From positions 1 to 30,027 of the IMG/VR virus record IMGVR_UViG_3300030019_000130: DNA of 30,027 nt; one strand, written 5' to 3'. The notes under the pieces were generated by a model. The model saw nothing but the letters and a program-made list of their open reading frames with translations. It was not told the origin of the DNA and made no database searches. This stretch comes from a virus. The position numbers were made by a program, and so were the translations under genes. This document shows positions 4,838-27,415 of the stretch, one piece after another. How positions within the stretch are numbered: position 1 is the first letter of the stretch; each line of letters opens with the position of its first letter.

Positions 4838-5206
4838 TTAATCGTTGTCTAGTCCGTATAAGTATTCAGTTTTAGATTTTACTTTTCGCGCTCTGGATCT
4901 CTTTGCCCGAAGCACATCGTTTGGAGAAGCTGCCATATCGAAAACTACAAGAAAAAGCAGCATGATTGCAAATACCTGGCGTTTCCGTTCGGTAATTTGA
5001 AAACTGATGTCGAATGCCTGACCGCAATACCATAGCACCAAATCGGAAAGCTTGCTAAAACCTAACTTTTCGTAGATGTTTTTTACGGTGGTTTCTACCG
5101 TGTAAATACTTCGGTGGGTTTTGTTGGCCACTTCTTTTTTCGATTCGCCCAGCGCGATGCGTTCGGCTATTTCAAATTCGGATCGGGATAACTGAGTTGC
5201 GATCAT
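4838..5206 (-). CDS. LuxR-type HTH regulator with C-terminal membrane helix
   Basis: A 122-residue protein. Residues 4-62 form a LuxR/GerE helix-turn-helix: LSRSEFEIAERIALGESKKE, then VANKTHRSIYTVETTVKNIY with the typical Thr-Val recognition helix, then EKLGF. A hydrophobic segment at about 78-94 (VFAIMLLFLVVFDMAA) suggests membrane anchoring, followed by a very basic tail (RAKRSRARKVKSK). LuxR-HTH proteins with a hydrophobic C-terminus are frequent in Bacteroides-type prophages near the switch. It is the second gene of the early operon, seven bases after the Cro-sized protein, so a role in early or late transcription control is likely. The target is unknown; it is one candidate activator for the late promoters. 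Confidence 0.8.
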   Translation of the reverse strand: MIATQLSRSEFEIAERIALGESKKEVANKTHRSIYTVETTVKNIYEKLGFSKLSDLVLWYCGQAFDISFQITERKRQVFAIMLLFLVVFDMAASPNDVLRAKRSRARKVKSKTEYLYGLDND

Positions 5207-12773: not shown

Positions 12774-12795
12774 GCGCTTTGGTAATTTTATATAG

Positions 12796-12830
12796 CAAAA
12801 ATAGCCGAAAGCGCATGACGGTTAAAGGAC
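12796..12830 (-). promoter_or_regulatory. late promoter A (GTCCTTTA-N19-TATTTTTG)
   Basis: On the - strand GTCCTTTA (12830-12823) is followed by exactly 19 bases and TATTTTTG (12803-12796). Transcription would start near 12792, about 19 bases before ATG 12773 of the tail tip gene. The box begins four bases after the stop of the preceding gene. One of four copies with identical spacing. Confidence 0.75.
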
Positions 12831-12834
12831 AAAT

Positions 12835-14721
12835 CTACTCGTACAGTTTAGTAGTTCGGAGGTTGGCTTCTATCATTTTAATTCCGTTATCTGAAATTTC
12901 GTACTTCATATTTTCAACAATTACTGGTTGACCACCTACCAGTTTTTGTTGTCCTATGTCGAAATTTTGAAATTGAACTGGATACAAATTAAAATTGGTA
13001 AGAATAGGCTGATAGGAGTTATTGAGTACAACGTTGAATTTTTTCCAAAACGTTTCAAATAATCCTTTTTCTCCTCCGTATACCATGTGTATATTTCCGT
13101 TCGGTTGACCGATATTATTATATGAATGCGTTGATGCAAAAACAAGCTTTTCACTGTATAATTTTTTTATATCTGTATTTTCGTTTGGATTAGCAACTCC
13201 CTGCCCATGAAAAAAACAAAACATTATAGGGCATACATCTGAAGATGATGAATTATCTGCTAATAAATCATCTTCCACACGTATACTTGTATTCAACATT
13301 CGCTTATCTCCTACAAATGGAACTGGATAATAAAATCCTTTCCATCTAGAACCAGATATAGCCGGTATTATAAGTAAATCTGCATACACCATTGGTATTG
13401 CTGTATGTGTTGATTTCATTTCCTGAGCAGTTAAGTCTTTAATCTCATCATAGTAATCGAGTGAATCATCTCCAATCGTTGTCATTTTTCCATCCTTAAC
13501 CTGAAAAATAGTACATAAATTTTTAGAGAAATAGTAGCCATTACTTAGTGTAGTTGTAGCTGAAAAAATAAGATAATCCATTGGAATGATTGCTTTATTT
13601 TCAACTAATTTCTGATAAGTAGAAAAATTGGATTTTACCTGATCGAGAGAATGATCGCACGAAAGCTTCAGCGATTTATAGCTTTCAATATTATTCACCG
13701 GTTCTACCGACACATTTTTTGTAAAATCTGCATCAACGTTATCAATTAATTCATTCATGAACACGACTTTTACATCAAGACCGTTATCAGATAGAAAGAA
13801 ATCACATCCGTAACGTTTTCGTATTCCTTCCAGAAAATCATTTACCGTGCCGGTAGGTACCAGATGTTCATAATGAAGTATTCCGGTCATAATTGCATCA
13901 CAAGTATTATTGAGTATAACCTCTTTTTGTAAATCGGGATATTTAGTCAAATAGTCCTGATTAAGCGTATACCCAAAATACTGAAACAGATGTGTAAGTA
14001 CATACGATAGTTTCAGAAATGGAGTAACATTATATCCCATAGGATAATTAATTGTAATATTATCTACAGTATCAGTCTGTATATTTTTAGCAATAAGTGG
14101 GAAATAAGGCTTTGAATTTTTATCATATATCAAATGACCTAGATCAATAAGCGGAGCATTCAGTAATAAGTATTTTGTGTAGGTAAATTGTGAAGATGAT
14201 GTTTCGCCTACTGCAGGTAACGTAATGGTTCGGCTTTCCATTTTTGTACAAACAGTAAATACAAAGAAATCATCCACTACATCACCCATCATTACACTTT
14301 CGAAGTGATTAAGCCATGCCAACATTTTAGGATTATACGGCAAATTGAAATCATCGCGTACCACGTTACTGAATACTTTAGGCATAGTAACTTCATTCAT
14401 TTGCGAATAAAAAATAGATTCGTTGAATAGACATGTAGCCGTTATCATGTTTCGCGAAGCGGAAGTAACTTGCAATGTTGCCGGGCGTTGGTATAGTCCG
14501 GCATTGATAATTATTTTTCGTTTTGGTAAGTATTTATATAGCCTATCAGTGCGATATGGATACTCCAGCAACTGAAAATTATTATCCGTTGGTGGCAAGG
14601 ATATCGATAGCGAAACGCTTCCTTTATCGCTCAGAAAAGGATTTGTTTTTTCAATACTCAGTTTGAATTTAGCGGGCAAATCGTAATCATGCCCGGTTTC
14701 GTAGTCTATTAATCGTATCAT
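12835..14721 (-). CDS. tail hub/baseplate-like structural protein
   Basis: A 628-residue protein directly downstream of the tape measure gene, with an ATGA overlap, the position of Dit/Tal-type tail proteins. The N-terminus (MIRLIDYETGHDYDLPAKFK, then SIEKTNPFLSDKGSVSLSIS) resembles the first large tail protein of Bacteroides siphophages, but I cannot name a Pfam family. No peptidase or glycosidase motif seen. It has several scattered cysteines, including CPIMFC at about 500. Probably the ring or hub that plugs the tail tube; role inferred from order. Confidence 0.7.
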   Translation of the reverse strand: MIRLIDYETGHDYDLPAKFKLSIEKTNPFLSDKGSVSLSISLPPTDNNFQLLEYPYRTDRLYKYLPKRKIIINAGLYQRPATLQVTSASRNMITATCLFNESIFYSQMNEVTMPKVFSNVVRDDFNLPYNPKMLAWLNHFESVMMGDVVDDFFVFTVCTKMESRTITLPAVGETSSSQFTYTKYLLLNAPLIDLGHLIYDKNSKPYFPLIAKNIQTDTVDNITINYPMGYNVTPFLKLSYVLTHLFQYFGYTLNQDYLTKYPDLQKEVILNNTCDAIMTGILHYEHLVPTGTVNDFLEGIRKRYGCDFFLSDNGLDVKVVFMNELIDNVDADFTKNVSVEPVNNIESYKSLKLSCDHSLDQVKSNFSTYQKLVENKAIIPMDYLIFSATTTLSNGYYFSKNLCTIFQVKDGKMTTIGDDSLDYYDEIKDLTAQEMKSTHTAIPMVYADLLIIPAISGSRWKGFYYPVPFVGDKRMLNTSIRVEDDLLADNSSSSDVCPIMFCFFHGQGVANPNENTDIKKLYSEKLVFASTHSYNNIGQPNGNIHMVYGGEKGLFETFWKKFNVVLNNSYQPILTNFNLYPVQFQNFDIGQQKLVGGQPVIVENMKYEISDNGIKMIEANLRTTKLYE

Positions 14722-17700
14722 TTGCGTGCCCCCAATCCTTTGTATTCTTCAGCAAGTGCCGAAGATTTTTTAAACTCCCAATAATTTATTTCCGCTTCTA
14801 TTTTGGTTGATTTCAATTCAGAAAGCCAATTTTCAAGCCCTACGATAAATGAATCATATCTACTTCCGTTATTTCCTGAAGAATTACTATCACCCGTATA
14901 TCCACCATCGGCAAAACCTGCAGGCAGCGGGTTTCGCTTGCTGCGTTGCTGCTTTACATTGTCTATTTTACGAACATAGGATGCTGTAACAGGATTACGC
15001 ATTTCTTGAGGTGCTACTACATATTCCTCTCTATGTACATCTCCTGCAACCTCTAATCTGTTACCATCACCAGTATAACCACCATCTGAAAATCCGGGGT
15101 TATTTACCACCACTTCACCGGATTTATTGCTTGAGCTACTCGATGAACTACTTGAAGAATCAACAGTCATCGATTTAATTTTATTACGTTCAGCTGCTGC
15201 AGCTGCTACTTGTGCTGCAGCTGTACCAACAAGTAATCCAGTCATTGCTACACCGGCCATGATATTAAATGGTGCCGGCAATTCCATTGCTGTAGACCAT
15301 GCATTCATTATACCGGTAGCAGTGGCAACGCCAATTTGTGCTACCTGAATACCAAACTGAGCATCGGCATATTTCTTTTGTACTTCGAGTTCGGCCACTG
15401 CCTGGTCGTGTTGCAGTTTTTCTTTCTTAGCTGCATAATCAGCATCGCTTTCGTTTAGTCCGGCAAGTCGTTTCTGGTAATCGGCTTGTACGGTTGCTGT
15501 TTCGGCACTTTGCAGGGCTGTAACAAAATTGGATCCAGCGGTAACAAGTGAACCAACCTGGTCCGTAAATTTTTTAGCTGCATTGAGTTTTAATTTCAGT
15601 TTTTCGTCCTGAAATTCTTGTTCGGAAAGTAGACCTTCGTCGTACTCTTTTTGTAATGCTGCTTTCTTTATTTCATACTCACCAAGTATAGAGCCTTTTG
15701 CATACTTAGTAGTTATTTTACTTTTTTCAGACTCAAATTTCTCATGCTGTTTAATCTTCTGATCATCAATTTGCGCTTGAGTATCGGCAACAGCTTTTTG
15801 ACTGGCCTGTAATGCTGCAATGTATTCGGGAGTTGCAGCCATTTCGAGTCCGGCCAGCAGATCGTTGAATTCTTGCTGTGCCTGCAATCGTGCATCAAGC
15901 CCTTCCGAATTTATACGATCAACTTCATCATCGTACTGTTTTTTGTTTAGTTTTCCATTGGCAAATTCCGATTTTGCATATTGAAGTTTAGCATTGGTAG
16001 TAGCTTCAATTGTTTTTAATTGAGCCGTATTTGAACGATTTAGAGAATCTAGAACGGCTTTATCAACTGCACTTTCAATATCTTCGCGTTTCTTTTCACT
16101 CTGCACTACAATATCAGTCAATATAGCTTGATGCTCTTTGTAAATTATTTCGTATGCTTTTAGTTTTTCACCTTTCAATCCACTATTTTCGGGTGATTTA
16201 TCCGATGAAATTCCGGTATCTTTTTTCAACCGGGCATAACGGGCATTTTCGGCATCAATGGTAATTTTTTGCACATTAGAGATATATAATTCTTCCAATC
16301 GCAATTTTTCGTCCAGCTGCTCTTTCGTCAGATTTACCAATTCTTTTCCAAATAAATCAGCAGTTTTTAGACGAACGTTATTATCTTGTTCCTCTGCTTT
16401 GAGTTGTTTTGATGCATCTTCGAAAATACGTTGACGAGCTGCCAATTGATCATCCAATATCTTTTTAGCTGCTTTTGAAGCATCTTCTAGTTTCTTTCTA
16501 AGCTTTTCCTGTTTTTTTATTTCATCGTCGGTAAGTTCCTTTTCTAATTTATTATTAGTTCTGATTACTCTTTGTAGTTCCTGCTTTGCTTCACCTTGTA
16601 CGCGAATAGAAGTCACTTGTTTTTCAACTAACCTATCAATTTCATCGCCTACCGTTTTGTTATATTTATGGAAGAATGCAGCCATATTTTTTACTGAGTT
16701 TCCTGTTTTAGCTTCGAGCGCATCCAGTTGTTTTGATGCATTTGCACCAGCTACAGCATTTGTTCCACCAAATGAACCTCCTGTAGATCCGGATGTATTC
16801 ATTATACCTTCTAGATCCGCTTTATGTTTCAAATAAGATTTAGTAGATGCCATTAAAGCCTGAAAATCTTTCTTATTATAATTTTCCATGAAAGTTTCAT
16901 ATTCACCTTTGCTCATTCCGGTTAAAGATGATATTTTTTTCATTTGATTTTTATAGTCTTTATCGGCAATATCTTGCTTTAATTTAGCCTCATCTTCAGT
17001 CATTTTTACAATTTCCTTACCAGCTTCCAACCGTTTTTTTGTATCTGCGTTCACATTTCGTTGTTGTTCCAATAAATCTTGTTTTTTATTGAAATTCTTA
17101 GCTTCCTCTACCGTTAAAGCCTGTTGTTCCTTTTTAATTTCACCAAGTGTAAGTTTATATTCACGCCCGGCATTGAATGCTTCAATCATTCCTCTGAATG
17201 AAAAATCACCACTTGCAAGTGATTTCAATAGATAATCCCATGAATTAGTGAAACCTTCAATATCAGCTTTAAATTCTTTTGAAGTAGCACGTGTACTCAT
17301 CATCACTTCACCAACAAAAGCAAGTGCACCAGCTACTAATCCAATCACAGCTGCATATTTTCCCAAAGCAGGAATCATACCCATTACATCTCCACTTTTA
17401 GCAGCTGAAAGGAAACTACTAAAACTGGCAGCTCCTTTATTCAAAGTATTACTGACATCATCCGTTTTACTTTTTAGGTTTACTTTTGCCTGAGCAACTG
17501 CATTAATTTCTTTTTCTAGTTTTGCGTATTCTTCAGGGTGAAGTACTTTAGAAGTATTATCAAGTTGCTTCTGTAAATCTTTCTCAGTTTTCATAAGCTG
17601 TGTTTTGGTCATATTAGCATAACCCAGCGTTTTTTCATGCTCCTTAATCTTTAGCGTATTATAAGCTATAGATTTTGAGTTTTCTTTGTACGAAGCATCA

Positions 17701-17888
17701 AGGTTTTTCCATGCTTCACTGTTTTTTCTACCTTGAGCTACTAAATCATTCATGTCTTTAAGCAATGATTTATTCGATGCAGTCAATTCTTTATTAGCAA
17801 GTGTTACCTTGTGAATTTCTTGCTGTGTTTTTGAAGCATCCAGCGAAAGGATCCATTTTATTTCGTCATCTTTTAATTTTCCAGCCAT
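14718..17888 (-). CDS. tail tape measure protein
   Basis: A 1056-residue protein and the longest gene in the window. Long Lys/Glu/Gln-rich coiled coils cover about 20-150 and 230-830. Hydrophobic segments occur at about 176-197 (LGKYAAVIGLVAGALAFVG) and about 846-903 (Ala/Gly-rich), the usual membrane-active parts of tape measures. A run of ten serines lies near 913. The C-terminal tail carries DGGYTGD twice and a VHREEYVV motif, found at the ends of many tape measure proteins. It sets tail length and forms the channel for DNA entry. ATGA overlap with the next tail gene. Confidence 0.92.
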   Translation of the reverse strand: MAGKLKDDEIKWILSLDASKTQQEIHKVTLANKELTASNKSLLKDMNDLVAQGRKNSEAWKNLDASYKENSKSIAYNTLKIKEHEKTLGYANMTKTQLMKTEKDLQKQLDNTSKVLHPEEYAKLEKEINAVAQAKVNLKSKTDDVSNTLNKGAASFSSFLSAAKSGDVMGMIPALGKYAAVIGLVAGALAFVGEVMMSTRATSKEFKADIEGFTNSWDYLLKSLASGDFSFRGMIEAFNAGREYKLTLGEIKKEQQALTVEEAKNFNKKQDLLEQQRNVNADTKKRLEAGKEIVKMTEDEAKLKQDIADKDYKNQMKKISSLTGMSKGEYETFMENYNKKDFQALMASTKSYLKHKADLEGIMNTSGSTGGSFGGTNAVAGANASKQLDALEAKTGNSVKNMAAFFHKYNKTVGDEIDRLVEKQVTSIRVQGEAKQELQRVIRTNNKLEKELTDDEIKKQEKLRKKLEDASKAAKKILDDQLAARQRIFEDASKQLKAEEQDNNVRLKTADLFGKELVNLTKEQLDEKLRLEELYISNVQKITIDAENARYARLKKDTGISSDKSPENSGLKGEKLKAYEIIYKEHQAILTDIVVQSEKKREDIESAVDKAVLDSLNRSNTAQLKTIEATTNAKLQYAKSEFANGKLNKKQYDDEVDRINSEGLDARLQAQQEFNDLLAGLEMAATPEYIAALQASQKAVADTQAQIDDQKIKQHEKFESEKSKITTKYAKGSILGEYEIKKAALQKEYDEGLLSEQEFQDEKLKLKLNAAKKFTDQVGSLVTAGSNFVTALQSAETATVQADYQKRLAGLNESDADYAAKKEKLQHDQAVAELEVQKKYADAQFGIQVAQIGVATATGIMNAWSTAMELPAPFNIMAGVAMTGLLVGTAAAQVAAAAAERNKIKSMTVDSSSSSSSSSSNKSGEVVVNNPGFSDGGYTGDGNRLEVAGDVHREEYVVAPQEMRNPVTASYVRKIDNVKQQRSKRNPLPAGFADGGYTGDSNSSGNNGSRYDSFIVGLENWLSELKSTKIEAEINYWEFKKSSALAEEYKGLGARK

Positions 17889-17914
17889 GGCGGTAGTATT
17901 GTATTGTGGTTATA

Positions 17915-17942
17915 GTAGAGACGCACAGCGGTACGTCTCTAC
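17915..17942. repeat. 28-bp palindromic repeat, copy 1
   Basis: GTAGAGACG (17915-17923) pairs with CGTCTCTAC (17934-17942), with two further pairs around an AGCG loop and one mismatch. It lies 27 bases upstream of the tape measure ATG. A related element is at 23057-23084. Confidence 0.7.
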
Positions 17943-17949
17943 AGAGGTG

Positions 17950-18351
17950 CTACATTTCAAATTTTATTTCTAATTGTTGTCCGGCATCTTCCAGTTGTTT
18001 GCGTATAATGGCGCGTATTTCGTCGGTCATACCGTAGCGAAGTGCAGGTAATGTTTCGCCGTACAGAACGCCCCAAACGGCACGGTTATACAGGTGAAGT
18101 TTACCGCGTAATACCCAATTATTTCTAATATCATTAAAGCGTAGGTATTTTAATATGCGAACAGAAACGCTGAACTTTTGGCTTGCGCCTGTGATACCAA
18201 AACTTCGTTCGTTCAGTTTTGCGAACAGCGTACCGGTACGTTCTTTCATTACCTGGTGCGCCACATCGCTTTGGATATCGAATATTTTATTCACTCCCTT
18301 TCGGAGCGTATCCGTAGCAAACTTGTCTTTGATTATTTCGTCCGATATCAT
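17950..18351 (-). CDS. pre-tape-measure tail morphogenesis protein (hypothetical)
   Basis: A 133-residue basic protein (MISDEIIKDKFATDTLRKGV), helical at the ends with a beta-rich middle (QKFSVSVRILKYLRF) and an amphipathic C-terminal helix (IRAIIRKQLEDAGQQLEIKF). Its place immediately before the tape measure and after a late promoter suggests a tail assembly or tail-completion role; size and charge would also allow an HK97-gp10-like protein. No specific family recognised. First gene of the unit driven by late promoter B. Confidence 0.6.
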   Translation of the reverse strand: MISDEIIKDKFATDTLRKGVNKIFDIQSDVAHQVMKERTGTLFAKLNERSFGITGASQKFSVSVRILKYLRFNDIRNNWVLRGKLHLYNRAVWGVLYGETLPALRYGMTDEIRAIIRKQLEDAGQQLEIKFEM

Positions 18352-18375
18352 ACGCGGTTATTCTTTTGTTCAATG

Positions 18376-18410
18376 TAAAGATATGGCGGGACGGTTAGCG
18401 TATAAAGGAC
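18376..18410 (-). promoter_or_regulatory. late promoter B (GTCCTTTA-N19-TATCTTTA)
   Basis: On the - strand GTCCTTTA (18410-18403), 19 bases, then TATCTTTA (18383-18376; last base A instead of G). The predicted start is about 21 bases upstream of ATG 18351. It lies downstream of a strong terminator, so the tape measure unit would depend on it. Confidence 0.72.
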
Positions 18411-18456
18411 AGAATTAGTTGATAGTGGAGAGTTGACAGTTGAAAATGTGGAGATG

Positions 18457-18493
18457 AAAAAAGCCCCTGACATGATTTGTCAGGGGCTTTTTT
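18457..18493. terminator. strong bidirectional intrinsic terminator
   Basis: A 16-bp perfect stem: AAAAAAGCCCCTGACA (18457-18472) with TGTCAGGGGCTTTTTT (18478-18493) around TGATT. It ends the 18515-18925 gene and separates it from late promoter B. Confidence 0.93.
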
Positions 18494-18514
18494 ATGAATA
18501 ATCAACTTATAGGT

Positions 18515-18925
18515 TTAGTTTTCTCCTATTCCAAAGTTTTTGCGAATAACGTCATTGATTACGCGTTTACGTTCCTCAGTATTCATGCTTTTATATGCAT
18601 CTTTTTTACCGTCTATAGCATTACTTCTTAGTACAGCAGTCATTTCGGCTTCTCCACTTGCTATACCATCGTTGTAGCTTTGCATTTCGGGTGAATTGGG
18701 ATTAGCAATAGCTTCAGCAGTTTCTTCGAGTAGATAAGGTGGTATATGTCCGCGAAGAATTCTAATGGCCTGCATTGGATCTAATCCATGTCTACCACAT
18801 TCGAAAAGGATATCCAATGATGATTTATTGGTGGTATCAAATGGATTTTCTTTTTCTTTTGTTGATTTCACAGCTGCTGCTACTGATTCATCAATGGCAG
18901 CTTGCAATTCTTCGTCTATTTTCAT
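18515..18925 (-). CDS. moron-like hypothetical protein
   Basis: A 136-residue acidic, helical protein with no membrane or enzyme motif visible. The middle segment (HGLDPMQAIRILRGHIPPYL, then AIANPNSPEMQSYNDGI) is distinctive but matches nothing I can name. It has its own consensus Bacteroidota promoter (18954-18984) and a perfect terminator immediately after it, the promoter-ORF-terminator layout of a moron expressed in the lysogen. Alternatively it is a small virion or assembly protein, since it lies in the morphogenesis region. The autonomous signals favour the first reading. Confidence 0.6.
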   Translation of the reverse strand: MKIDEELQAAIDESVAAAVKSTKEKENPFDTTNKSSLDILFECGRHGLDPMQAIRILRGHIPPYLLEETAEAIANPNSPEMQSYNDGIASGEAEMTAVLRSNAIDGKKDAYKSMNTEERKRVINDVIRKNFGIGEN

Positions 18926-18953
18926 AATAACAGTATGTTTTTATAATACTTTG

Positions 18954-18984
18954 CAAATCTATCACTTATTTAATTTATTTCAAA
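18954..18984 (-). promoter_or_regulatory. consensus Bacteroidota promoter (TTTG-N19-TAGATTTG)
   Basis: On the - strand TTTG (18984-18981), 19 bases, then TAGATTTG (18961-18954), a full match to the primary-sigma consensus. It would start transcription about 25 bases upstream of ATG 18925. Unlike the late promoters it lacks the GTCC extension. Confidence 0.75.
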
Positions 18985-19002
18985 CGACAATTATATTTTT
19001 AA

Positions 19003-19494
19003 TTATTCCATTTTCAGAACTTTAAGTTCATCATCCATATAAAAAACATAAGATTTAATTTCTATATTACCATCTTTTTGTGCAGATCTAAATTTATGAT
19101 AAATTACATATCCATCAGTAATTTCTTTATAATTTTTAGATGCTTTATCGTAAATTGGTTTGTATTCATTTACCTTATTATTGTAAAATTTTAAGCTGTC
19201 ATCTATTTGTCCAGGTATAAATAGTTTTTCTGGATCACCTTGCTCTTTTAAATACTCCCATGATTGTTTACTACGTTTATATTCAAAATATTTATCACTA
19301 ATCGGTTTTCCAATTTTGGAGTCATCAAATCTAATTGTATTAGGAATCAATTTTCCAAATTCAACAGGGTCATAGCTTTTAAAATCATCTAAATTATTTT
19401 TAAGATACTCTTTTACCGCTTTTTCAGCTGTATTTTGTCTTGTACAAGAATATAAGCTTAAAAGAATAATCGCCAAAACAATAACTTTTTTCAT
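19003..19494 (-). CDS. putative surface lipoprotein (moron candidate)
   Basis: A 163-residue protein with a typical lipoprotein signal (MKKVIVLAIILLSLYSC, Cys17 as lipidation site) and a soluble Lys/Asp-rich domain (EKAVKEYLKNNLDDFKSYDP). Such short lipoproteins occur widely in Bacteroidota; the exact family is unknown to me. The region is AT-richer than the flanking morphogenesis genes and is insulated by a terminator upstream (19552-19591) and another beyond the next gene (18457-18493). A lysogenic conversion or superinfection-exclusion lipoprotein is a reasonable hypothesis. Confidence 0.65.
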   Translation of the reverse strand: MKKVIVLAIILLSLYSCTRQNTAEKAVKEYLKNNLDDFKSYDPVEFGKLIPNTIRFDDSKIGKPISDKYFEYKRSKQSWEYLKEQGDPEKLFIPGQIDDSLKFYNNKVNEYKPIYDKASKNYKEITDGYVIYHKFRSAQKDGNIEIKSYVFYMDDELKVLKME

Positions 19495-19527
19495 ACTTGA
19501 TAATTTTTGATTGATTAATAATGACTG

Positions 19528-19535
19528 TAAAGATA
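19528..19535 (-). promoter_or_regulatory. candidate -7 box of the lipoprotein gene
   Basis: TATCTTTA on the - strand, about 33 bases before ATG 19494; the expected upstream box position holds only a T run that overlaps the preceding terminator. Weak. Confidence 0.35.
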
Positions 19536-19551
19536 TATATTTTTAAGGAAT

Positions 19552-19591
19552 AATAAAAAAAACGCCCGAACTTCACAGCCCGAGACGTTTT
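19552..19591 (-). terminator. terminator after the sufE-like gene
   Basis: On the - strand the RNA pairs AAAACGUCU with GGGCGUUUU (four A-U pairs, then C-G, G-C and wobbles), followed by an eight-T run. It ends the portal-to-SufE unit, whose last gene stops at 19619. The 17-base inner sequence is nearly the same as in the 7769-7805 terminator. Confidence 0.75.
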
Positions 19592-19618
19592 ACCTTACTA
19601 TTAACCAATAAATAAAAA

Positions 19619-20008
19619 CTATGACAGTCGAAGTATCATTTGCTCCAGCGCTCCGGCGCGTGCCGGTGTGAGGTGTGCGAGTAGTTTGGTTTCGGTATGG
19701 AAGTTGATAACGGCCTGCTGTATTTCGGTGCGTGTAGCGCCTTGAAACAGCTCTTTTACTACGGTTATTATTCCACTGGGTATTGCTGCATTGCTTTGTC
19801 CGTAGATATGTGCTACGTCGTTAAGGTACGTACAGCAGAAATAGGTTTGGCTTGTGCAACCTTGTATTTTATTTTCAGGTACCACCATGTGTTCCGGCAT
19901 GGCTTGTAGTTCGTCCGATAAATGGATCAGGTAATCGAACTTATCGTTCCATTCGCCCAGGTCATTGAATAGGGAAATGAATTCTTGTTGTTTGTCGGCT
20001 AGGGTCAT
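19619..20008 (-). CDS. sufE: SufE-family sulfur-acceptor protein in the late operon
   Basis: A 129-residue protein with the full SufE pattern: an N-terminal helix (EFISLFNDLGEWNDKFDYLI), AMPEHMVVPENKIQGCTSQ with the active-site cysteine at position 51, SNAAIPSGIITVVKELFQG, and the C-terminal HLTPARAGALEQMILRL. SufE accepts persulfide sulfur from the desulfurase SufS and passes it to the SufBCD scaffold for Fe-S cluster assembly in the cytoplasm. The length matches free-standing SufE. Its ATG shares a base with the stop of the upstream gene (TAATG), so it is translated as part of the morphogenesis unit. Two further cysteines (58, 59) follow the active site. Confidence 0.9.
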   Translation of the reverse strand: MTLADKQQEFISLFNDLGEWNDKFDYLIHLSDELQAMPEHMVVPENKIQGCTSQTYFCCTYLNDVAHIYGQSNAAIPSGIITVVKELFQGATRTEIQQAVINFHTETKLLAHLTPARAGALEQMILRLS

Positions 20009-20565
20009 TACAGTACATTTTTTTCATCGTTAAACAATGCAGTCCATCCGCTTCGGTCGTTGAATGTAACAGGATCTACCGGATAAATATCAGCCGGGAA
20101 AGTAATCAGTTTCATCAGTCCACATGCTTCGAGTTCTTCCTGATCAGCGCGCATCTTCATCAATATGCCGTTGAGCACATTGTTGCATTCGTTCATTAGC
20201 AGGGCTTCGTTCAGGTTATCGTTGTTAGCAACGTTGTATTCGCGGGCAACGGTAATTCCTATTTTTTCAGTCACTCCACCGGTAGTAGTAGGGTTAAACG
20301 AAAACTGGCCGTACTCCACAAAAAGTACTATTCCTTTGGAATTTTTCACCGTGTCTTTTACAAATTTATCGTTGGAGCTAACGATAAATGTACCAATCTC
20401 CGGAACTATGTCCGTATCAGGTTGCGCCATTATTTCGGCTGCTATTTCGGAGTAACCGGAATTGCGGGTTTGATCCGGTAATGCGAATAGGTCCTGCAAA
20501 ACAGACTTAGGAACGAATTTGGAGTAATAGCGATAAATGCTAATGATATAGTCCTGATTAGTCAT
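20008..20565 (-). CDS. hypothetical morphogenesis protein (head-tail region)
   Basis: A 185-residue protein (MTNQDYIISIYRYYSKFVPK). The middle has paired strands (GIVLFVEYGQFSF, EKIGITVAREYNV) and the end DIYPVDPVTFNDRSGWTALF. Position between connector genes and tape measure, with its start overlapping the upstream stop by eight bases and its stop overlapping the sufE start by one, indicates a co-translated morphogenesis protein. A tail-terminator or tail-completion role is possible from position and fold style; no family is certain. Confidence 0.6.
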   Translation of the reverse strand: MTNQDYIISIYRYYSKFVPKSVLQDLFALPDQTRNSGYSEIAAEIMAQPDTDIVPEIGTFIVSSNDKFVKDTVKNSKGIVLFVEYGQFSFNPTTTGGVTEKIGITVAREYNVANNDNLNEALLMNECNNVLNGILMKMRADQEELEACGLMKLITFPADIYPVDPVTFNDRSGWTALFNDEKNVL

Positions 20566-21481
20566 TAGATAGGCGATTTATGTTTTTAATACTTAATCCG
20601 GTGCGTTTAGCCAGTTCATCTTTCGTGATACCTGAACCTAGCGCGTTGTTTACAGAGTCTTTAAGGGCTTTTACCTGCGCGTCGTAAAACTCGATCACAT
20701 TTTTATCCTGAACAAACGAATACCCTTCTTTTTCGAGGAAAAGCAATGTTTCACTCATGCCCAGGTTTATTTTACTTTCGTCGGGTTCTTCGCCTTCAGC
20801 GCGATCGTACAAAACACTGTATACCGGATGTTCACGGAAGAACTTCACGATACCGGTAAACCAAAACATCACACCGAACGGAATCTCTGCAGGCAGACGC
20901 AGAATAGCGCGGGTATTGAAACCGTACAACGTTTCCATTATTTTACGCAAGCAAATAATTCGCACATAGTCTTTATCGGTTTGATTGTATGCCTGCAGTA
21001 AGTCCATGCAGTCGACGTACTGTTTAGCCGTTATATTCGTCTCTACAGTAACATCACGGTTGAAATAAACCGGTGCACTGCTATCGAAAGGATTGCGTTT
21101 AAAATCGTACTTAGGCACGATCTTATTATCCTGAAGCGTAAAAGCAAAAGTGATATGTTCAGCCAACTGAATCAGATTAAACTCGATAATTTCCTGCGTA
21201 TCGGCACGGTGCTGAAGAATTTCTTTCGCTTTTTTCTTTTTGAATAGCATTAGCCATAATAAGCTAATAAACCACTTTGTCCGAAACCAGAACCCGCTTG
21301 ACTTAGCCGATTTATACCCGGTAATTTTTATCAGCATATTCAACTGAAATTGGAATGGGGTTATTTCGAGCGATAGCAGTCGCGCCAATTCGTGAAATGC
21401 AAATACAACCTGGTCGCCTTTCAAATCTTCCCAGCATTCGGGAAGGTTGATAGTGGTACGTTTAAGTTTGATGGTTTTCAT
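20558..21481 (-). CDS. hypothetical phage morphogenesis protein
   Basis: A 307-residue mostly helical protein. It opens MKTIKLKRTTINLPECWEDL, continues with a Trp/Phe-rich helix (SSGFWFRTKWFISLLWLMLF, about 60-80) that could be membrane-associated or buried, and ends with ITKDELAKRTGLSIKNINRL, which looks like a small helix-turn-helix. It overlaps its neighbours at both ends (ATGA upstream, eight bases downstream). The place between connector and tail genes suggests a tail assembly factor, but I recognise no family. Confidence 0.6.
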   Translation of the reverse strand: MKTIKLKRTTINLPECWEDLKGDQVVFAFHELARLLSLEITPFQFQLNMLIKITGYKSAKSSGFWFRTKWFISLLWLMLFKKKKAKEILQHRADTQEIIEFNLIQLAEHITFAFTLQDNKIVPKYDFKRNPFDSSAPVYFNRDVTVETNITAKQYVDCMDLLQAYNQTDKDYVRIICLRKIMETLYGFNTRAILRLPAEIPFGVMFWFTGIVKFFREHPVYSVLYDRAEGEEPDESKINLGMSETLLFLEKEGYSFVQDKNVIEFYDAQVKALKDSVNNALGSGITKDELAKRTGLSIKNINRLSND

Positions 21482-22029
21482 TGCTGTGTATTTTCAAAAA
21501 TGAATGGACGACAGACTCCGGTGGAAAAATGCTCTGCAGCTTTTAAAGCTCTAAGTACTATTTTTTCGGGAGAAACCTCATTCACATCAGTTGAATACAT
21601 TGCTCCTAATGCATATTCAACACCACATCCTACAGATGCAAAACCGTCGATATTTTCACCCACTTGAAAATCTTCATCAATCTGAAAAAGTCTGTTTTTA
21701 TAGGCAACAAGAAAAGTTCCACCTTTTTCATCACCATCTTTCTGTTTTTGAATATATCCACCATCAGTAAAGCATTTACGAACTTCATTGATAAAATCAG
21801 TACACATATACTCATAAATATCTTTGTCATTTATCACCGGTGGTTTGAATGAAAATCGAAGCAATTGAATCATTCTAAACGAAGAAGTACATCCAATAAC
21901 AAAATCACCATTTTTGAAAAGTTTTGTGTCTTTACGCGCCATAATAAGTGATCCTGCTACCCCTGCAGAATCAGCACCCATAATTACTACATCATTTTCT
22001 TTGTCCAAAAATCCTACAATACATGTCAT
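21478..22029 (-). CDS. HslV/proteasome-like Ntn hydrolase
   Basis: A 183-residue protein beginning M-TCIVGFLDKENDVVIMGADSAGVAG. Thr2 becomes the N-terminal nucleophile after removal of Met, and the strand-turn-GADS pattern is that of proteasome beta/HslV-type Ntn hydrolases. FVIGCTSSFRMIQLL (about 43-57), GGTFLVAYKNRLFQIDEDFQ (about 103-122), VGCGVEYALGAMYST and VLRALKAAEHFSTG match the later strands and helices of that fold. I recall a phage/bacterial family of this type. Sitting between connector and tail genes, it might process head proteins or remove assembly factors. Activity and oligomeric state are inferred. Confidence 0.78.
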   Translation of the reverse strand: MTCIVGFLDKENDVVIMGADSAGVAGSLIMARKDTKLFKNGDFVIGCTSSFRMIQLLRFSFKPPVINDKDIYEYMCTDFINEVRKCFTDGGYIQKQKDGDEKGGTFLVAYKNRLFQIDEDFQVGENIDGFASVGCGVEYALGAMYSTDVNEVSPEKIVLRALKAAEHFSTGVCRPFIFENTQQ

Positions 22030-22059
22030 AATAGTTTGTTTTATTGGTTAGTTTATAGT

Positions 22060-23040
22060 TTAATATCCAAACGAATCACTCTCGCACACACCCCGTAATT
22101 TGTACACTTGTGTGGATGCTCTCCCGGAATTTGCTTCAGTGGCTTTGTTGGCAATGTCTGTATCCAATGCACGCCAGTACGCATCGGCTTTGGCTTGATA
22201 TCTTGTACTTACTTTTTCACGTATATAGTTATCAGATTGCGATGCATGATCCTTACTCAACTCATTGTTTATATCCCTACGGATTGGTTCTGGCAAATTA
22301 TAGTAAGAAAGTACTATACAGGCGCGGGCAATGACTTCGTAGCATACGGCGCGTGCAATTTCGGGCGTTTTTTCTTTTTGGTTACGACTGGCAACGCATT
22401 CGGTCCATACTTCGCGGATCAGTCCGGCAGCATTGAGCATGAAATATTCGTCTGAGACTCCTATCCACTTTTTGAAATCGGCAACTTTTACCGGTATTTC
22501 GTTGAGTTCTTTGCGTTGGTCGGAATCTTTCCATTCGGAAAATTTAGCGGCATTATCGTTCATCAATTTAATCAACCGATTCATCCAATACCAACCGTCA
22601 TTGATCAATTCATTATCCAAATTTTCTTTCTGATACTTGTACAATGGTATTTCATCATCGTTCTTTTTTTGAGTTAACCCATCGTTCCCTATACGAGCAA
22701 TAATGAAAATAGTATGTTTATAAACTGCAAAATTGATAACTGCAAACTGCAAATAGTCTTTTGCCAACGCGTTTAATTCCACTTCCAAATTTTCTACTAC
22801 TGCAGGAACTTCCGCCGTATCACCATCGGCTGGTATAGCTGGTATAGCTTCCGTTTTGGCAGCTGTACCGTCGCATAGTTTGTCGTATAGCGATTGTCCA
22901 ATCAAATCGGCGATATCGGCACCGGCTTTTGTCATCGGGCTTTCGAGGTTGTCATAACTGAGTGTGACGTTGGCACCCGAAAGTTTCGGTTTCATCTCAG
23001 TCGCAAAATTGGCGCGGGTGAATGGTATTTTTAGTGGCAT
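22060..23040 (-). CDS. head-tail connector-like protein (DUF6712-like)
   Basis: A 326-residue, mainly helical protein starting MPLKIPFTRANFATEMKPKL, with AGADIADLIGQSLYDKL (about 39-55), a long helical region, and DNYIREKVSTRYQAKADAYW near the end. The sequence style resembles DUF6712, a family located just after the portal in Bacteroides phages (from memory). Adaptor/head-completion proteins commonly follow the portal gene, so a connector role is likely. There is an internal low-complexity insert (AIPAIPADGDTAEVPAVVEN, about 65-84). A palindromic repeat lies in the short gap before its start. Confidence 0.65.
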   Translation of the reverse strand: MPLKIPFTRANFATEMKPKLSGANVTLSYDNLESPMTKAGADIADLIGQSLYDKLCDGTAAKTEAIPAIPADGDTAEVPAVVENLEVELNALAKDYLQFAVINFAVYKHTIFIIARIGNDGLTQKKNDDEIPLYKYQKENLDNELINDGWYWMNRLIKLMNDNAAKFSEWKDSDQRKELNEIPVKVADFKKWIGVSDEYFMLNAAGLIREVWTECVASRNQKEKTPEIARAVCYEVIARACIVLSYYNLPEPIRRDINNELSKDHASQSDNYIREKVSTRYQAKADAYWRALDTDIANKATEANSGRASTQVYKLRGVCESDSFGY

Positions 23041-23056
23041 AGTCGTATGTTTTTAT

Positions 23057-23084
23057 GTATAGACGCACGGCTGTGCGTCTTTAC
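23057..23084. repeat. 28-bp palindromic repeat, copy 2
   Basis: AGACGCAC (23061-23068) pairs with GTGCGTCT (23073-23080) around GGCT, and the outer GTA/TAC bases pair across one mismatch. It is related to the element at 17915-17942 (shared AGACGCAC core and 28-bp span) and lies 17 bases before ATG 23040. Confidence 0.72.
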
Positions 23085-23090
23085 TGATTA

Positions 23091-24623
23091 TTATTTCACC
23101 GCTGGATCTGCAGTAGCTGTATTCGTCAATCGATCATTTGGTGTAGTTTCCTGTTGTTTGGCCGGAATATCAATCCATAGGCCTATTTTAATGCCTTTTG
23201 TTTTGGCATACGGAAAGTTGATATACATTGCCCGATTGAGTTCTTTAAGCACAAAGAATTCATCCCATGTGAGCGTTGACACATACAGCAGGTAGTTGTA
23301 ATACACATCAGCACCGGCAAGCGAAATAACGCCCTCTTTATCTACACCGGTGATTGCCGACGGAATTCCCAACGAAGCCAATACAACCTGGTCGGAGCGT
23401 TTATCGTTGCTATTGATCGAATCAATAAACTCTTTGAACTTACCCGGCATTTCTTCAAACTTCCATGGACTTTCACCGAACTGAGTGGTAGCATATAATT
23501 TACCTTGATTTTTACCTTCGCCAGTCATCAGGCTAGTGATCCGGCGAAGTTCGCATGAAATCAAATCATCAACCATTGTTTCAAAGAAACGATATGGTTT
23601 TCCGGCATCATCTACAAGTCGTACACCACGATATTCAGTTTGAATTGGCGTATCAGGATCATTCATCAGGTTATTATTGCAAATCTCTTGTAAAATCGTT
23701 TTTTGATGCGTGTACCAATCACCAGGTATAATGACATGCACATGTGCATTAAGCGCATTTTTGTAGTACGAATTGGTGTATTTGGGTGCAAGATTGGAAG
23801 ATTTAATGTATTCCGAAGCTCCTTTGAACCAATCATTAAAAGCATACACCCATTTGGTAAATGTTTTTTCGGAGTTGAAAGCAATTGCCGTAGGGAATTT
23901 AGTCGGGTTACGAGGGTCGAAGCGTGGGAATACATCGTATTGGTGAGATGAAATATACAACCAATCGCCCTGAATGACGAACTGGCAATCATCCGATTTT
24001 ATGCGTTTGTTGGTAAAATCACCGGTAGCAGCAAGTCGCGCTTCATCAGCACCAACATAGCTCAATGCATCAATAGCAGCTGGAGCACCAATGCGACGGC
24101 CTTTGTTGAAATTGTATTTTGAAGCGCATGTTTTTACAAAATAATAGTCGGTTGCAAGGCTTTTAATATAGTCATAGTAGTGATTATATCCTTTTTCTTC
24201 CCAACTTTCCAACCAATTTTGAATATTTGAATCGATTAGTGGAACACGAACACGGCGCGCATCAGCACCTTCTCCAATTACTTGTTCCTGATATAAACGC
24301 GGTCCTTTTCCGAAAAGGAATTTCACTTGTTTTTCAATCAGTTTTGGTATCAATTTATGTTCACCAACAACGGCTGCCACTTCCTGCGGATATAGGTTAT
24401 GTCCTTCTCCCCAAAACGGAATGGTATAATCGCCCAATCGCATGGTTACACGATCGGTAGAATATTTACTGTACAGCGTTTGAAATTCGCGTGTAGTGAT
24501 ATTTTCACGCTCCGAAACGCCTTGTATCTCGAATGTCAATACGTTTGATTGTGAACTTGCAATACCTCTGTTGGCACTTGTAAATTCAATTTTTACATCC
24601 TTTTCAGTAACTTTTGTGCTCAT
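23091..24623 (-). CDS. phage portal protein
   Basis: A 510-residue protein two genes after the large terminase and of the usual portal length. The region around residues 60-105 (LGDYTIPFWGEGHNLYPQEV, then LIEKQVKFLFGKGPRLY) matches the portal stem-entry style of Bacteroidota phages. The C-terminal part (VVLASLGIPSAITGVDKEGV, then LAGADVYYNYLL) has the conserved helix-loop that in portals follows the wing. It would form the 12-subunit ring at one capsid vertex through which terminase pumps DNA. Identity from order, length and these motifs. Confidence 0.82.
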   Translation of the reverse strand: MSTKVTEKDVKIEFTSANRGIASSQSNVLTFEIQGVSERENITTREFQTLYSKYSTDRVTMRLGDYTIPFWGEGHNLYPQEVAAVVGEHKLIPKLIEKQVKFLFGKGPRLYQEQVIGEGADARRVRVPLIDSNIQNWLESWEEKGYNHYYDYIKSLATDYYFVKTCASKYNFNKGRRIGAPAAIDALSYVGADEARLAATGDFTNKRIKSDDCQFVIQGDWLYISSHQYDVFPRFDPRNPTKFPTAIAFNSEKTFTKWVYAFNDWFKGASEYIKSSNLAPKYTNSYYKNALNAHVHVIIPGDWYTHQKTILQEICNNNLMNDPDTPIQTEYRGVRLVDDAGKPYRFFETMVDDLISCELRRITSLMTGEGKNQGKLYATTQFGESPWKFEEMPGKFKEFIDSINSNDKRSDQVVLASLGIPSAITGVDKEGVISLAGADVYYNYLLYVSTLTWDEFFVLKELNRAMYINFPYAKTKGIKIGLWIDIPAKQQETTPNDRLTNTATADPAVK

Positions 24624-24641
24624 ATTATTGATTAATTAATT

Positions 24642-24959
24642 TCAAAACCATTTTACAGTTAACCATTCGTGTGATGGTGGAAAAGAAATTTTTCGAATTA
24701 GTTTTTTGAAGCATTGCCGGGCTAATCCGGTTTCCATATCTTCGAAATATAGGTAGTGATCAGATACTACATTCAAACCTTCATCTTTCATCGCCGGCCG
24801 TAACCGGCAACTATCGTACTTTCGGATTTCACCGTATTCGTTTCTCTGAATATCGCATGTGATAAATATGATCGCGAACGTTGCACCTGGTACTAATTTC
24901 AGATTTCGGATCCGAATAAAAGCATCGGCACCGCTTATTGTCTTTTCGGTAAATTCCAT
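24642..24959 (-). CDS. hypothetical protein between terminase and portal
   Basis: A 105-residue protein; I use ATG 24959 (an in-frame TTG at 24965 would add two residues). It has beta strands (ATFAIIFITC), a central YDSCRLRPAM and a C-terminal FPPSHEWLTVKWF. Short genes with an L-R-P-A and F-P-P ending occur between terL and portal in related phages as I recall, but no function is assigned. It is the first gene after late promoter C, whose predicted start site falls on or next to the A of this ATG, so the message may be leaderless. Confidence 0.6.
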   Translation of the reverse strand: MEFTEKTISGADAFIRIRNLKLVPGATFAIIFITCDIQRNEYGEIRKYDSCRLRPAMKDEGLNVVSDHYLYFEDMETGLARQCFKKLIRKISFPPSHEWLTVKWF

Positions 24960-24962
24960 ATA

Positions 24963-24997
24963 CAAAAAAAGCTAACTTTCGTTAGCTCTTAAAGGAC
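24963..24997 (-). promoter_or_regulatory. late promoter C (GTCCTTTA-N19-TTTTTTTG)
   Basis: On the - strand GTCCTTTA (24997-24990), 19 bases, then TTTTTTTG (24970-24963). The second box has T instead of A at position two. The 19-base spacer itself contains the stem-loop annotated as a terminator. Spacing identical to the other three late promoters. Confidence 0.6.
24964..24987 (-). terminator. terminator inside the spacer of late promoter C
   Basis: On the - strand AGCTAAC, a GAAA tetraloop, GTTAGCT, then a seven-T run. It lies 21 bases after the stop of the large terminase gene and would end the terS-terL transcript. Confidence 0.8.
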
Positions 24998-25007
24998 ATT
25001 ATCAAAA

Positions 25008-26726
25008 CTATGCAGAGTAATTCCCCGCTCCCATTGCTTTCGTTTGCTTCCGTTCGGAGTCGGGCAACAAGTAACTGAACTCACCCCAAATCAGGTACAT
25101 CAGTGCTGATGATATTTGTGTAGAGTAATATGCCTGATCTTTGTATTCCAACAATTTTTCTGAGCTTTTATCGAGTTCGATTTTACCTTCAGTACGTTTT
25201 ATAGGTGAATGGTTGATACTCGAAATGGTTGCTTCACATTCATTTTCATCAATAAGTATATCCGATCGGTTTCCTTCGTTTTTCCCGAAAACCAAATTCA
25301 AAAGCCGGTAATGCTGCGAATAATAGATAGTCGGTTGACCTAAACTCATCAGCGTAACGTTCCAACCTCGTTTTGTAAGTGCAATTTTCAACATCTGAGC
25401 ATCTGTATCGTTCAAATCACCACTAGGTTTATAAAACTTACGGTAATGAGGGTCGCGTTGGTTAGCAGCTCGGTCGTAATGGAAAATAATCGACTTATTT
25501 CCGGTCATTCGCTGTGGCTTGAAAAAATTATCGAATTTTTCGGCCATTTCTTCATGCTGATCAGGGTGAATCACCCACATATCCTTTATAACCCTGAATT
25601 CTTTCTTTTTCTTGTTATGCTGTGCCACTTCAAGACTCGAAAACGGTCCCGGATCTAGTCCAATGATTAGCGGTAAATTCTTATCCCAATATTTCAGATT
25701 TTTGCATGTATGATTAAATTTTTCTTCAATTGAAATATTATCGATATTTCCATAAGTATAACCGTCATCAAAAGTATGCTCCTTTCCAAATTTACCGAAA
25801 AACCGATCTTTCACCTTATGTTTCCTAACTGCAAAAATTGAAGTATTCAAACGATCTACATCCTTAATATTTTTAATCATATTTTCGATGTAATCAATAC
25901 CCAGAATTTTTACATTAGAAAAAGAAGAAGCACGTAAATAATAAGTTTGATTTAAACGAAGTTCAGATAATCTTTCATTCCATCGTTCAATAAATTTATT
26001 CAGCTTTTCTTGCTTTTTTATATCTAAATTGTTTTCTGCAACTACTAAGTCAGCCATACGAATATCAACCTCAAGAGCTAATTCAGCAATACACTCTACT
26101 AGCTCATCACTCATATCCGATTGGTATTTTGTCCACCAATCTTCATCAGTCTCAAAATTTGGAGTTGATGAAGTACCTGTAATACCTCCATAATAATGTG
26201 ACAATCCAAATTTGGAACGATCTGAACGCAAAGCAGGAAATACACGCTCTGTAAACTTATCCTCTCTAATACGAAGCATTTCATCACAAATCAAGTGTGC
26301 ACCATTCTTACCAAGTGCAGATTCGGGTCTGTCTGCAGAAACAAACTGAACAACTGTACCAGTACAGAAAGATATAGTTTGCTTCCAATTATCAATACCA
26401 GTATGACATCTCCCAAAATGTTTTGGAGGTTCTTTCCCTATTTCAAAATAAACACCACGCTCATAGTTCTCATAGAAGTATTCCATCAGTCCCGGAAGAA
26501 TATTATCGAGAATAGTCTTATATGTTGGAGCTGCCATTATTATAACACAACCCTTCATATCCCATTGTATTCTGTCGAGTCGTGGTGCAAGTATGTGTGT
26601 TGTCTTACCTGATCCACGACCAAGCTCACCAAATAGAAATGTTGTATCAATAAGTTTAACTAATATCTGAGCGATAGATAAATAGTTTTCTTCAAAATAG
26701 TCAGGTGAGTATTTGCGTACTTTCAT
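25008..26726 (-). CDS. terL: terminase large subunit
   Basis: A 572-residue packaging motor and nuclease. The ATPase domain has Walker A GRGSGKT at 36-42 (LFGELGRGSGKTT) and Walker B LICDEM with Asp148-Glu149. The C-terminal RNase H-like nuclease shows Asp358 in IIGLDPG and Asp418 in FHYDRAANQRDP. Length and order are typical. It cuts concatemers and translocates DNA into the prohead through the portal. It begins five bases after the small terminase stop in the unit driven by late promoter D. Confidence 0.95.
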   Translation of the reverse strand: MKVRKYSPDYFEENYLSIAQILVKLIDTTFLFGELGRGSGKTTHILAPRLDRIQWDMKGCVIIMAAPTYKTILDNILPGLMEYFYENYERGVYFEIGKEPPKHFGRCHTGIDNWKQTISFCTGTVVQFVSADRPESALGKNGAHLICDEMLRIREDKFTERVFPALRSDRSKFGLSHYYGGITGTSSTPNFETDEDWWTKYQSDMSDELVECIAELALEVDIRMADLVVAENNLDIKKQEKLNKFIERWNERLSELRLNQTYYLRASSFSNVKILGIDYIENMIKNIKDVDRLNTSIFAVRKHKVKDRFFGKFGKEHTFDDGYTYGNIDNISIEEKFNHTCKNLKYWDKNLPLIIGLDPGPFSSLEVAQHNKKKKEFRVIKDMWVIHPDQHEEMAEKFDNFFKPQRMTGNKSIIFHYDRAANQRDPHYRKFYKPSGDLNDTDAQMLKIALTKRGWNVTLMSLGQPTIYYSQHYRLLNLVFGKNEGNRSDILIDENECEATISSINHSPIKRTEGKIELDKSSEKLLEYKDQAYYSTQISSALMYLIWGEFSYLLPDSERKQTKAMGAGNYSA

Positions 26727-26731
26727 ATTAT

Positions 26732-27355
26732 CTATTCTTTTACAACTGTAAAATCTGCATCCTCAATACCAAGTTCTCTTGTTAGTTCACCTTTAAGCCT
26801 TTCCTTATCATTACTACTTATATCTCTAGCAGCAATTATATTCTTACCACGTTCATAAGCAATAAGAATACCTTTCTTCTTAATACCCATGCGTTCGAGT
26901 TCCATATCGGCCGAAACAATCTGAGGCTTGAACTTAATACGATCGGGGTTGATAGCGTTAGCCGATGCCTTCAGTCTCCATGCCAATGCATCCTCATTAT
27001 TCTTTCTTGCTTCAGTAAAGTTATGAGCTACTAATGCAACCTCCATTAATCTCATTGCAGTATCAGCATGAAACATATTCCATGCTTCGCTTGTGACTGA
27101 GCAATCAGCATTAAAGTAGTTGATAGCATCGTATATACGTGCCTTACATGTCGAGATAGATAGAATAGGATAAGACTTTTGAAGCACACGCGCGCACTCA
27201 GTAATAGAAGGGTTACGTCGCAATAGGTTGGATGCTTCATTCACTTGAAGAATATACTCGGCCAGCGCGGGTGGTATACCTACCTTCTTTGCGTCGCGTA
27301 CCTCAAGGAATCGCTCCACCACTTCCGTTGGTAGTCGTTGTAGATGTTGTATCAT
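26732..27355 (-). CDS. terS: putative terminase small subunit
   Basis: A 207-residue protein directly upstream of terL. Residues about 45-80 (LLRRNPSITECARVLQKSYP, then STCKARIYDAINYF) form a helix-turn-helix-like segment followed by a helical bundle (MFHADTAMRLMEVALVAHNF), consistent with the DNA-recognition and oligomerisation parts of TerS. The C-terminus is charged, as in TerS tails that contact TerL. It would recognise the packaging site, which may be in its own gene or in the untranslated DNA just upstream. Call based on order and domain style. Confidence 0.75.
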   Translation of the reverse strand: MIQHLQRLPTEVVERFLEVRDAKKVGIPPALAEYILQVNEASNLLRRNPSITECARVLQKSYPILSISTCKARIYDAINYFNADCSVTSEAWNMFHADTAMRLMEVALVAHNFTEARKNNEDALAWRLKASANAINPDRIKFKPQIVSADMELERMGIKKKGILIAYERGKNIIAARDISSNDKERLKGELTRELGIEDADFTVVKE

Positions 27356-27380
27356 AGTGGTTAATTGAACTTGTATACTT

Positions 27381-27415
27381 CAAAATTACTCAACTATAAA
27401 TAGGCGCTAAAGGAC
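27381..27415 (-). promoter_or_regulatory. late promoter D (GTCCTTTA-N19-TAATTTTG)
   Basis: On the - strand GTCCTTTA (27415-27408), 19 bases, then TAATTTTG (27388-27381), a full match to TAnnTTTG. The start would lie about 22 bases before ATG 27355 of the small terminase gene. Confidence 0.75.

Follow-up and report, generated by a model that had tools for sequence, protein, structure and literature searches.

Four copies of the octamer GTCCTTTA, each followed after exactly 19 bases by a box of the TAnnTTTG type, very probably represent a class of late promoters of temperate tailed phages infecting Bacteroidota. The octamer was identified in a 30,027-base viral sequence (hereafter, the window), in which the late genes (terminase, portal-like protein, tape measure, virion protein, holin and endolysin) occupy the − strand and an integrase gene is on the + strand. 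There are exactly four copies in the window, all on the − strand (12823-12830, 18403-18410, 24990-24997 and 27408-27415), intergenic and pointing in the late direction. The boxes 19 bases past these copies are, in the same order, TATTTTTG, TATCTTTA, TTTTTTTG and TAATTTTG, and the next ATG follows 22, 24, 3 and 25 bases past the box (at 12773, 18351, 24959 and 27355). The initial sequence-only reading of this DNA, which had reported the four copies together with their strand, the exact 19-base distance and the nearby gene starts, is accurate at all four sites. The sites, along with a variant pair that probably constitutes a fifth promoter, are the following.

12796-12830, − strand: predicted late promoter; GTCCTTTA at 12830-12823, N19, TATTTTTG at 12803-12796; precedes gene 11628-12773, the virion gene 9591-11615, holin and endolysin.
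18376-18410, − strand: predicted late promoter; GTCCTTTA at 18410-18403, N19, TATCTTTA at 18383-18376; upstream of gene 17950-18351 and of the tape measure gene 14718-17888.
18954-18988, − strand: probable fifth late promoter; variant GTCGTTTG-N19-TAGATTTG; before gene 18515-18925.
24963-24997, − strand: predicted composite of late promoter and terminator; GTCCTTTA at 24997-24990, TTTTTTTG at 24970-24963, ATG at 24959.
27381-27415, − strand: predicted late promoter; GTCCTTTA at 27415-27408, N19, TAATTTTG at 27388-27381; upstream of the putative gene for the small terminase (26732-27355) and of the large terminase gene (25008-26726).

Two of the boxes, TATTTTTG and TAATTTTG, fit the −7 consensus, and TATCTTTA and TTTTTTTG each deviate by one base. 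The probable fifth site has a matrix score of 16.7, near the 5th percentile of known sites, and its GTCGTTT at the 19-base spacing is found at few other loci. When the window is considered alone, the enrichment of the octamer is marginal (4 copies vs. 0.84 expected; 2 of 100 shuffles reach 4, before correction for the choice of octamer). The octamer followed by TAnnTTTG after 17 to 21 bases was matched twice in the window and not once in 100 shuffles.

A twin record (G002; 39,917 bases) carries the genes of the window at 100% identity and fills approximately 10 kb that the window is without; because it has a 127-base terminal repeat, it is probably a complete circle. Among named genomes, 'Porphyromonadaceae bacterium H1' carries the nearest relative, a prophage with 72% terminase identity, and remoter relatives were found in Bacteroides, Prevotella, Porphyromonas, Dysgonomonas and others. 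Several other genes of this phage can be mentioned here. On the − strand of the window, gene 28172-28783 contains a 15-base unit repeated in tandem about 18 times (28271-28549), which gives its protein an acidic, DETKV-like repeat; the copies of this gene in relatives show 32-42% identity. The small lipoprotein-like gene 19003-19494 (− strand), which among the compared relatives was detected in the twin record only, sits between late units with a terminator upstream and looks like a cargo gene. The early region missing from the window contains, as read from the protein sequences, a DNA cytosine-methyltransferase-like gene (G002:10359-11960, locus L151, − strand) and a Dam-like gene (G002:7690-8511).

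The evidence that carries the promoter assignment comes from 159 terminase-related loci (2.43 Mb in total). In these loci, GTCCTTT preceded T[A/T]nnTTTG at a spacing of 19 at 153 sites on the late strand, a count that includes some near-identical contigs, and at 0 sites on the other strand; spacings other than 19 yielded 0 to 4 cases, and scrambled boxes produced no peak. When only unique contexts were counted, GTCCTTT before TAnnTTTG occurred 76 times on the late strand and 0 times on the other. The spacing was 19 in 53 of the 56 GTCCTTT-box pairs from 24 contigs, and the composite with at most one mismatch was present in 22 of 23 close relatives (0 for the reversed-pattern control). These counts bear out the proposed class of late promoters, in which the −7 box is host-like and the spacing is fixed, and the match to TAnnTTTG is independently supported by the test of spacing and strand. 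The spacers and flanks vary between phages, so the motif does not reflect simple sequence identity: the site in front of the small-terminase homologue, for example, keeps both boxes in relatives with a different spacer (e.g. G006:26227), and the homologue of site 18410 (G006:16262) has TATCTTTG. Phages of Bacteroides, Prevotella, Porphyromonas and others carry the element, which is still present where terminase identity has fallen to approximately 28%. A search of a viral collection with the 14-base pattern alone listed matches that were largely due to chance and were excluded as evidence.

The sites are almost confined to the late region. Downstream of the gene for a protein family of approximately 160 amino acids, which marks the early-late junction, there were 221 sites in 1,395 kb, compared to 2 sites in 163 kb upstream of this gene. 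Enrichment in the late gaps of related phages, which the sequence-only reading had set in advance as a check, was therefore observed, in the close relatives, in the counts over the 159 loci and in this confinement; the division of the late genes into units is likewise supported by the relatives and the late-region counts.

The comparison with relatives led to a corrected consensus, T-GTC(C/T)TTT-N-N19-TAnnTTTG. Among the single changes tested in GTCCTTT, only C4 to T retained a sizeable association, and several lineages without GTCC have GTCTTTT at the same place. In 229 non-redundant sites, the eighth base of the octamer is A in 39%, C in 27%, T in 23% and G in 11%, a T precedes the −33 box in 67%, and the −7 box, which was partly selected for, is T79 A79 n n T91 T100 T74 G93 (percent). 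The earlier proposal that the host −33 box is replaced by TTTA behind an invariant GTCC thus stands with respect to a phage-specific −33 side, but not in its details: TTTA is not diagnostic because the last base varies, and the invariant core is GTC(C/T)TTT rather than GTCC. One phage clade uses GTCTTTTG, which is close to, or contains, the host TTTG. As a separate observation, a related clade (L200, L202, L203, L216, L217, L219, L248, L249) has nearly invariant promoters of the form GTCTTTTGnnATnT..AAAA..TAGTACCTTTGCAC on both strands, with a spacer far more conserved than in other lineages.

Promoters of the Bacteroidota primary sigma (sigma-ABfr) consist of TTTG near −33 and TAnnTTTG at −7, separated by a spacer of variable length (PMC7366714). 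The phage sites share the −7 box and the overall geometry with these promoters and differ from them by having GTC(C/T)TTT, with a variable, G-poor last base, instead of TTTG (G in 11% at the fourth base; TTTA at the window sites), by the fixed spacer, and by their nearly exclusive location in phage late regions. We infer promoter activity, use of the host sigma, dependence on an activator along with its identity, and translational silencing, as parts of an explanation that, taken whole, we hold with good confidence. Under this explanation, the late operons in a large clade of temperate tailed phages of Bacteroidota would have their promoters at these sites; the TAnnTTTG box is probably read by the host primary sigma, and a phage protein produced as the early phase ends probably binds or stabilises the GTC(C/T)TTT element, such that several late units would fire together; RNA reading through from upstream would be neutralised at the promoter. 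Dependence of these promoters on a phage factor appears likely; the sequence-only reading had suggested a phage-encoded activator or sigma appropriator binding at −33, which is kept here as a hypothesis.

The best candidate for the −33 protein, and for an activator in general, is the basic ~160-aa family, the gene for which lies approximately 460 bp upstream of the first late promoter. This family is represented in 84 of the 159 loci, in the twin record (G002:6496-7026, a stretch that the window is without), in phages of P. gingivalis and B. thetaiotaomicron and, weakly, in phage 6H, with one or two gene copies per host genome. A recognisable late promoter follows the gene at a median distance of 462 bp in 60 of 81 loci (1 for the scrambled control). 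The median net charge of the family is +8, with +8 in the last 40 residues, and the structural model (pLDDT 94) has C-terminal helices at 81-110, 114-125 and 132-147. No functional match to the family was found in Pfam or PHROGs. The fold search returned no significant solved DNA-binding match; the best rows were homeodomains at E 2.4 and above, and a homeodomain likeness was discarded, rows at E > 2 not being evidence. The best viral match was a Polaribacter phage protein (E 0.006), and the BT-TP2 copy is called 'transcriptional regulator' by its depositors, which is an annotation only. Several observations count against this candidate: in 21 of the 81 loci, the 1.6 kb that follow the gene contain no recognisable site; the member from the clade of the window is strongly diverged (G002, E 3e-16, by profile only), yet the motif is unchanged; the clade with GTCTTTTG also has members of the family; and a neighbouring gene for a ~125-aa protein is about equally conserved. 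Given its position, conservation and charge, the chance that the ~160-aa family is the phage factor reading the late promoters seems to us only slightly short of even.

Alternatively, the activator could be another phage protein, such as the ~125-aa protein beside the first late promoter or a protein encoded in the window itself:

4838-5206, − strand: GerE/LuxR-type HTH protein, 122 aa, in the early region (Pfam GerE, 2e-8).

We consider this rather unlikely. GerE-type activators often bind near −35, and the ~125-aa family accompanies the ~160-aa family in 73 of 81 loci. However, a GerE match above the curated cut-off was found in just 4 of 15 and 5 of 28 records, and none in long motif-bearing contigs, P. 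gingivalis phages or BT-TP2 phages; the GerE/LuxR-type protein was rejected as a general activator, not being conserved among motif-bearing relatives. The ~125-aa protein is disfavoured as a regulator, given that its profile also matches an annotated 269-aa head-tail-like protein of BT-TP2, so that the family may be structural. Apart from its possible role, the GerE-type protein continues with a hydrophobic stretch, MLLFLVVFDMA, and is possibly membrane-associated; it occurs in the nearest relatives only.

An improbable scenario is that the unmodified host holoenzyme reads these sites as strong promoters, with GTC serving as a favourable −33 extension and timing achieved via a repressor or gene dosage. 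This is consistent with the −7 box being the host consensus (PMC7366714) and with the host TTTG contained in GTCTTTTG of one phage clade. Against it, the −33 octamer seldom ends in the host G, the distance between the boxes is rigid in the phages but described as variable in the host, and the sites are nearly restricted to the late region. Furthermore, a search of 14 host genomes (~60 Mb) gave 34 matches vs. 6 for the reversed pattern; most of the matches are within prophages, and approximately 21 of the 34, by our own count, are downstream of the ~160-aa phage gene. GTCTTTTG-N19-TAnnTTTG is rare in these genomes too (6 matches; control, 0).

Returning to the preferred explanation, the distance from the box to the first ATG is bimodal, with 3-5 bases in 64 of the 229 non-redundant sites and 14-25 bases in most of the others. 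We infer the transcription starts from the position of the box; an ATG 3-5 bases past the box would coincide with the predicted start, so that leaderless messages are predicted for a large class of sites. In B. thetaiotaomicron, only approximately 3.7% of 5′ UTRs are shorter than 10 nt (PMC7366714).

Three alternative arrangements could neutralise read-through RNA from upstream: a terminator may precede the promoter, a terminator may be placed within the spacer and use the −7 box as its U-tract, or a hairpin may have its 5′ arm at or before the −7 box and its 3′ arm over the start codon. Terminators ending within 30 bases upstream were found at 32 of 229 sites, compared to 0.75 in shuffles; upstream of 18410 in the window, a terminator hairpin with a T-run was read from the sequence at 18488-18462. 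A spacer-filling hairpin that ends at the box is present at 15 of 229 sites vs. 3.0 expected (G-U stems counted). At window site 24997, the spacer hairpin AGCTAAC-GAAA-GTTAGCT (24987-24970) has the GC-containing stem of an intrinsic terminator, followed by the U-run. Here TTTTTTTG, which had been placed correctly but described as a promoter box only, is both the U-tract and the −7 box. This composite adjoins the stop codon of the terminase, just past the end of the gene, and such composites recur in relatives with changed stem sequences.

In the class of sites with a leader, the spacer or the −7 region is complementary to the bases around the start codon. Perfect repeats of at least 8 bp were detected at 22 of 149 sites, vs. 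2.9% when halves were swapped between sites, and those of at least 10 bp at 12 of 149, vs. 0.3%; a duplex energy of −14 kcal/mol or lower was reached at 28 sites vs. 4.2 expected. Compared to ordinary gene starts, the signal is weaker than in the swap test (8+ bp, 13 of 140 vs. 10 of 400; 9+ bp, p = 0.058), and start-codon hairpins were found at a minority of sites. Among the 21 long repeats, the right arm overlaps the ATG in 14 and the repeat overlaps the −7 box in 16, and in all 21 the left arm ends by the predicted start. The box in front of the first late gene is frequently TAACATTG, the CATTG of which pairs with a CAATG that bears the start codon. The arm sequences change while the pairing stays, which argues for base pairing rather than a protein site. 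A case in the window is site 12830.

12771-12817, − strand: inverted repeat; the left arm, CATGCGCTTT (12817-12808), falls within the spacer, and the right arm, AAAGCGCATG (12780-12771), spans the ATG start codon (12773-12771).

Here, the folding energy is −24.2 kcal/mol (z −4.7) for read-through RNA, compared to −1.8 for RNA from the predicted start; the repeats at 18410 and 27415 are weak (z about −1). A start-codon hairpin in the read-through RNA would limit translation to RNA begun at the late promoter, and a translational lock of this kind is, on balance, the better bet. Neither the start-codon hairpins nor the conserved upstream ~160-aa gene had been noticed in the sequence-only reading. 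In its most complete form, which we offer tentatively and with somewhat less than even confidence, the proposal would involve a single late-promoter code used throughout a clade of temperate Bacteroidota phages, a new ~160-aa activator family retargeting the unusual Bacteroidota primary sigma, and an RNA lock built into the promoter, where the −7 box would be both a promoter element and either a terminator U-tract or an antisense of the start codon.

The terminator-like spacer and box at 24997 and at approximately 15 of the 229 sites might suggest that the element serves as a signal for RNA or DNA processing, or arises as a byproduct of terminators, rather than being a promoter, but most sites have the exact spacing and the −7 consensus of the host without any spacer hairpin, and the sites directly precede gene starts at the two ATG distances described above, making this very improbable. 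Chance recurrence of the octamer, although four copies are reached in 2 of 100 window shuffles, is rejected as having a negligible probability on the strand and spacing counts in relatives (153 vs. 0 and 153 vs. 0-4, respectively).

In the T4 middle promoters that depend on MotA/AsiA and in the promoters activated by Mu C and P2 Ogr, the host −10 box is kept and the −35 side is replaced in an activator-dependent manner. The sites described here are similar in that a host-like downstream box is combined with a phage-specific upstream element at several coordinated late units; they differ in the hosts and sequences involved and in that the candidate protein has no detectable homology to a named family. 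The hairpins resemble those of T4 gene e (also soc, 49 and I-TevI), in which a hairpin conceals the start codon of long transcripts and an internal late promoter gives rise, for gene e, to late transcripts that start inside the hairpin and lose its 5′ arm (PMC3014915). As in gene e, the 3′ arm lies over the start codon and the 5′ arm before the predicted late start, with pairing kept while the sequence changes; unlike gene e, the 5′ arm here overlaps the −7 box or the spacer, many phages have the arrangement at their first late gene, a terminator replaces the hairpin at other sites, and silencing is a prediction.

Duneviridae (Flavobacterium phage 6H), P. gingivalis phages and BT-TP2 phages have a related terminase (22-36% identity to that of the window), a similar gene order and the ~160-aa family (weakly in 6H); the P. 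gingivalis and B. thetaiotaomicron BT-TP2 phages also share the promoter element. With a terminase ~29% identical to that of 6H, the window phage is only distantly related to 6H-like Duneviridae, and no GTCCTTT-N20-box pairs were found in phage 6H. In the same phage (L178), TTTTTGTCCC occurs about 17 bases before TAnnTTTG at 16473 and 23132 on the + strand, the late genes being on the other one; this is probably due to chance. A literature search that did not extend to subscription journals and preprints yielded no description of late gene control in this phage group, of the motif or of late promoters of Bacteroidota phages, and promoters are not a subject of the paper on the P. gingivalis phages. 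Phage-specific upstream elements and gene e-like hairpins are of known kinds, but their combination, the consensus and the protein family appear to be new with respect to the searched literature.

The consensus can be used to mark the late operons and the prophages of Bacteroidota from the gut and mouth; the analysis also points to one candidate regulator per phage and may yield inducible expression parts for Bacteroides. The start-codon hairpin within the promoter suggests that the device of T4 gene e is widespread and has been kept at the first late gene of many phages.
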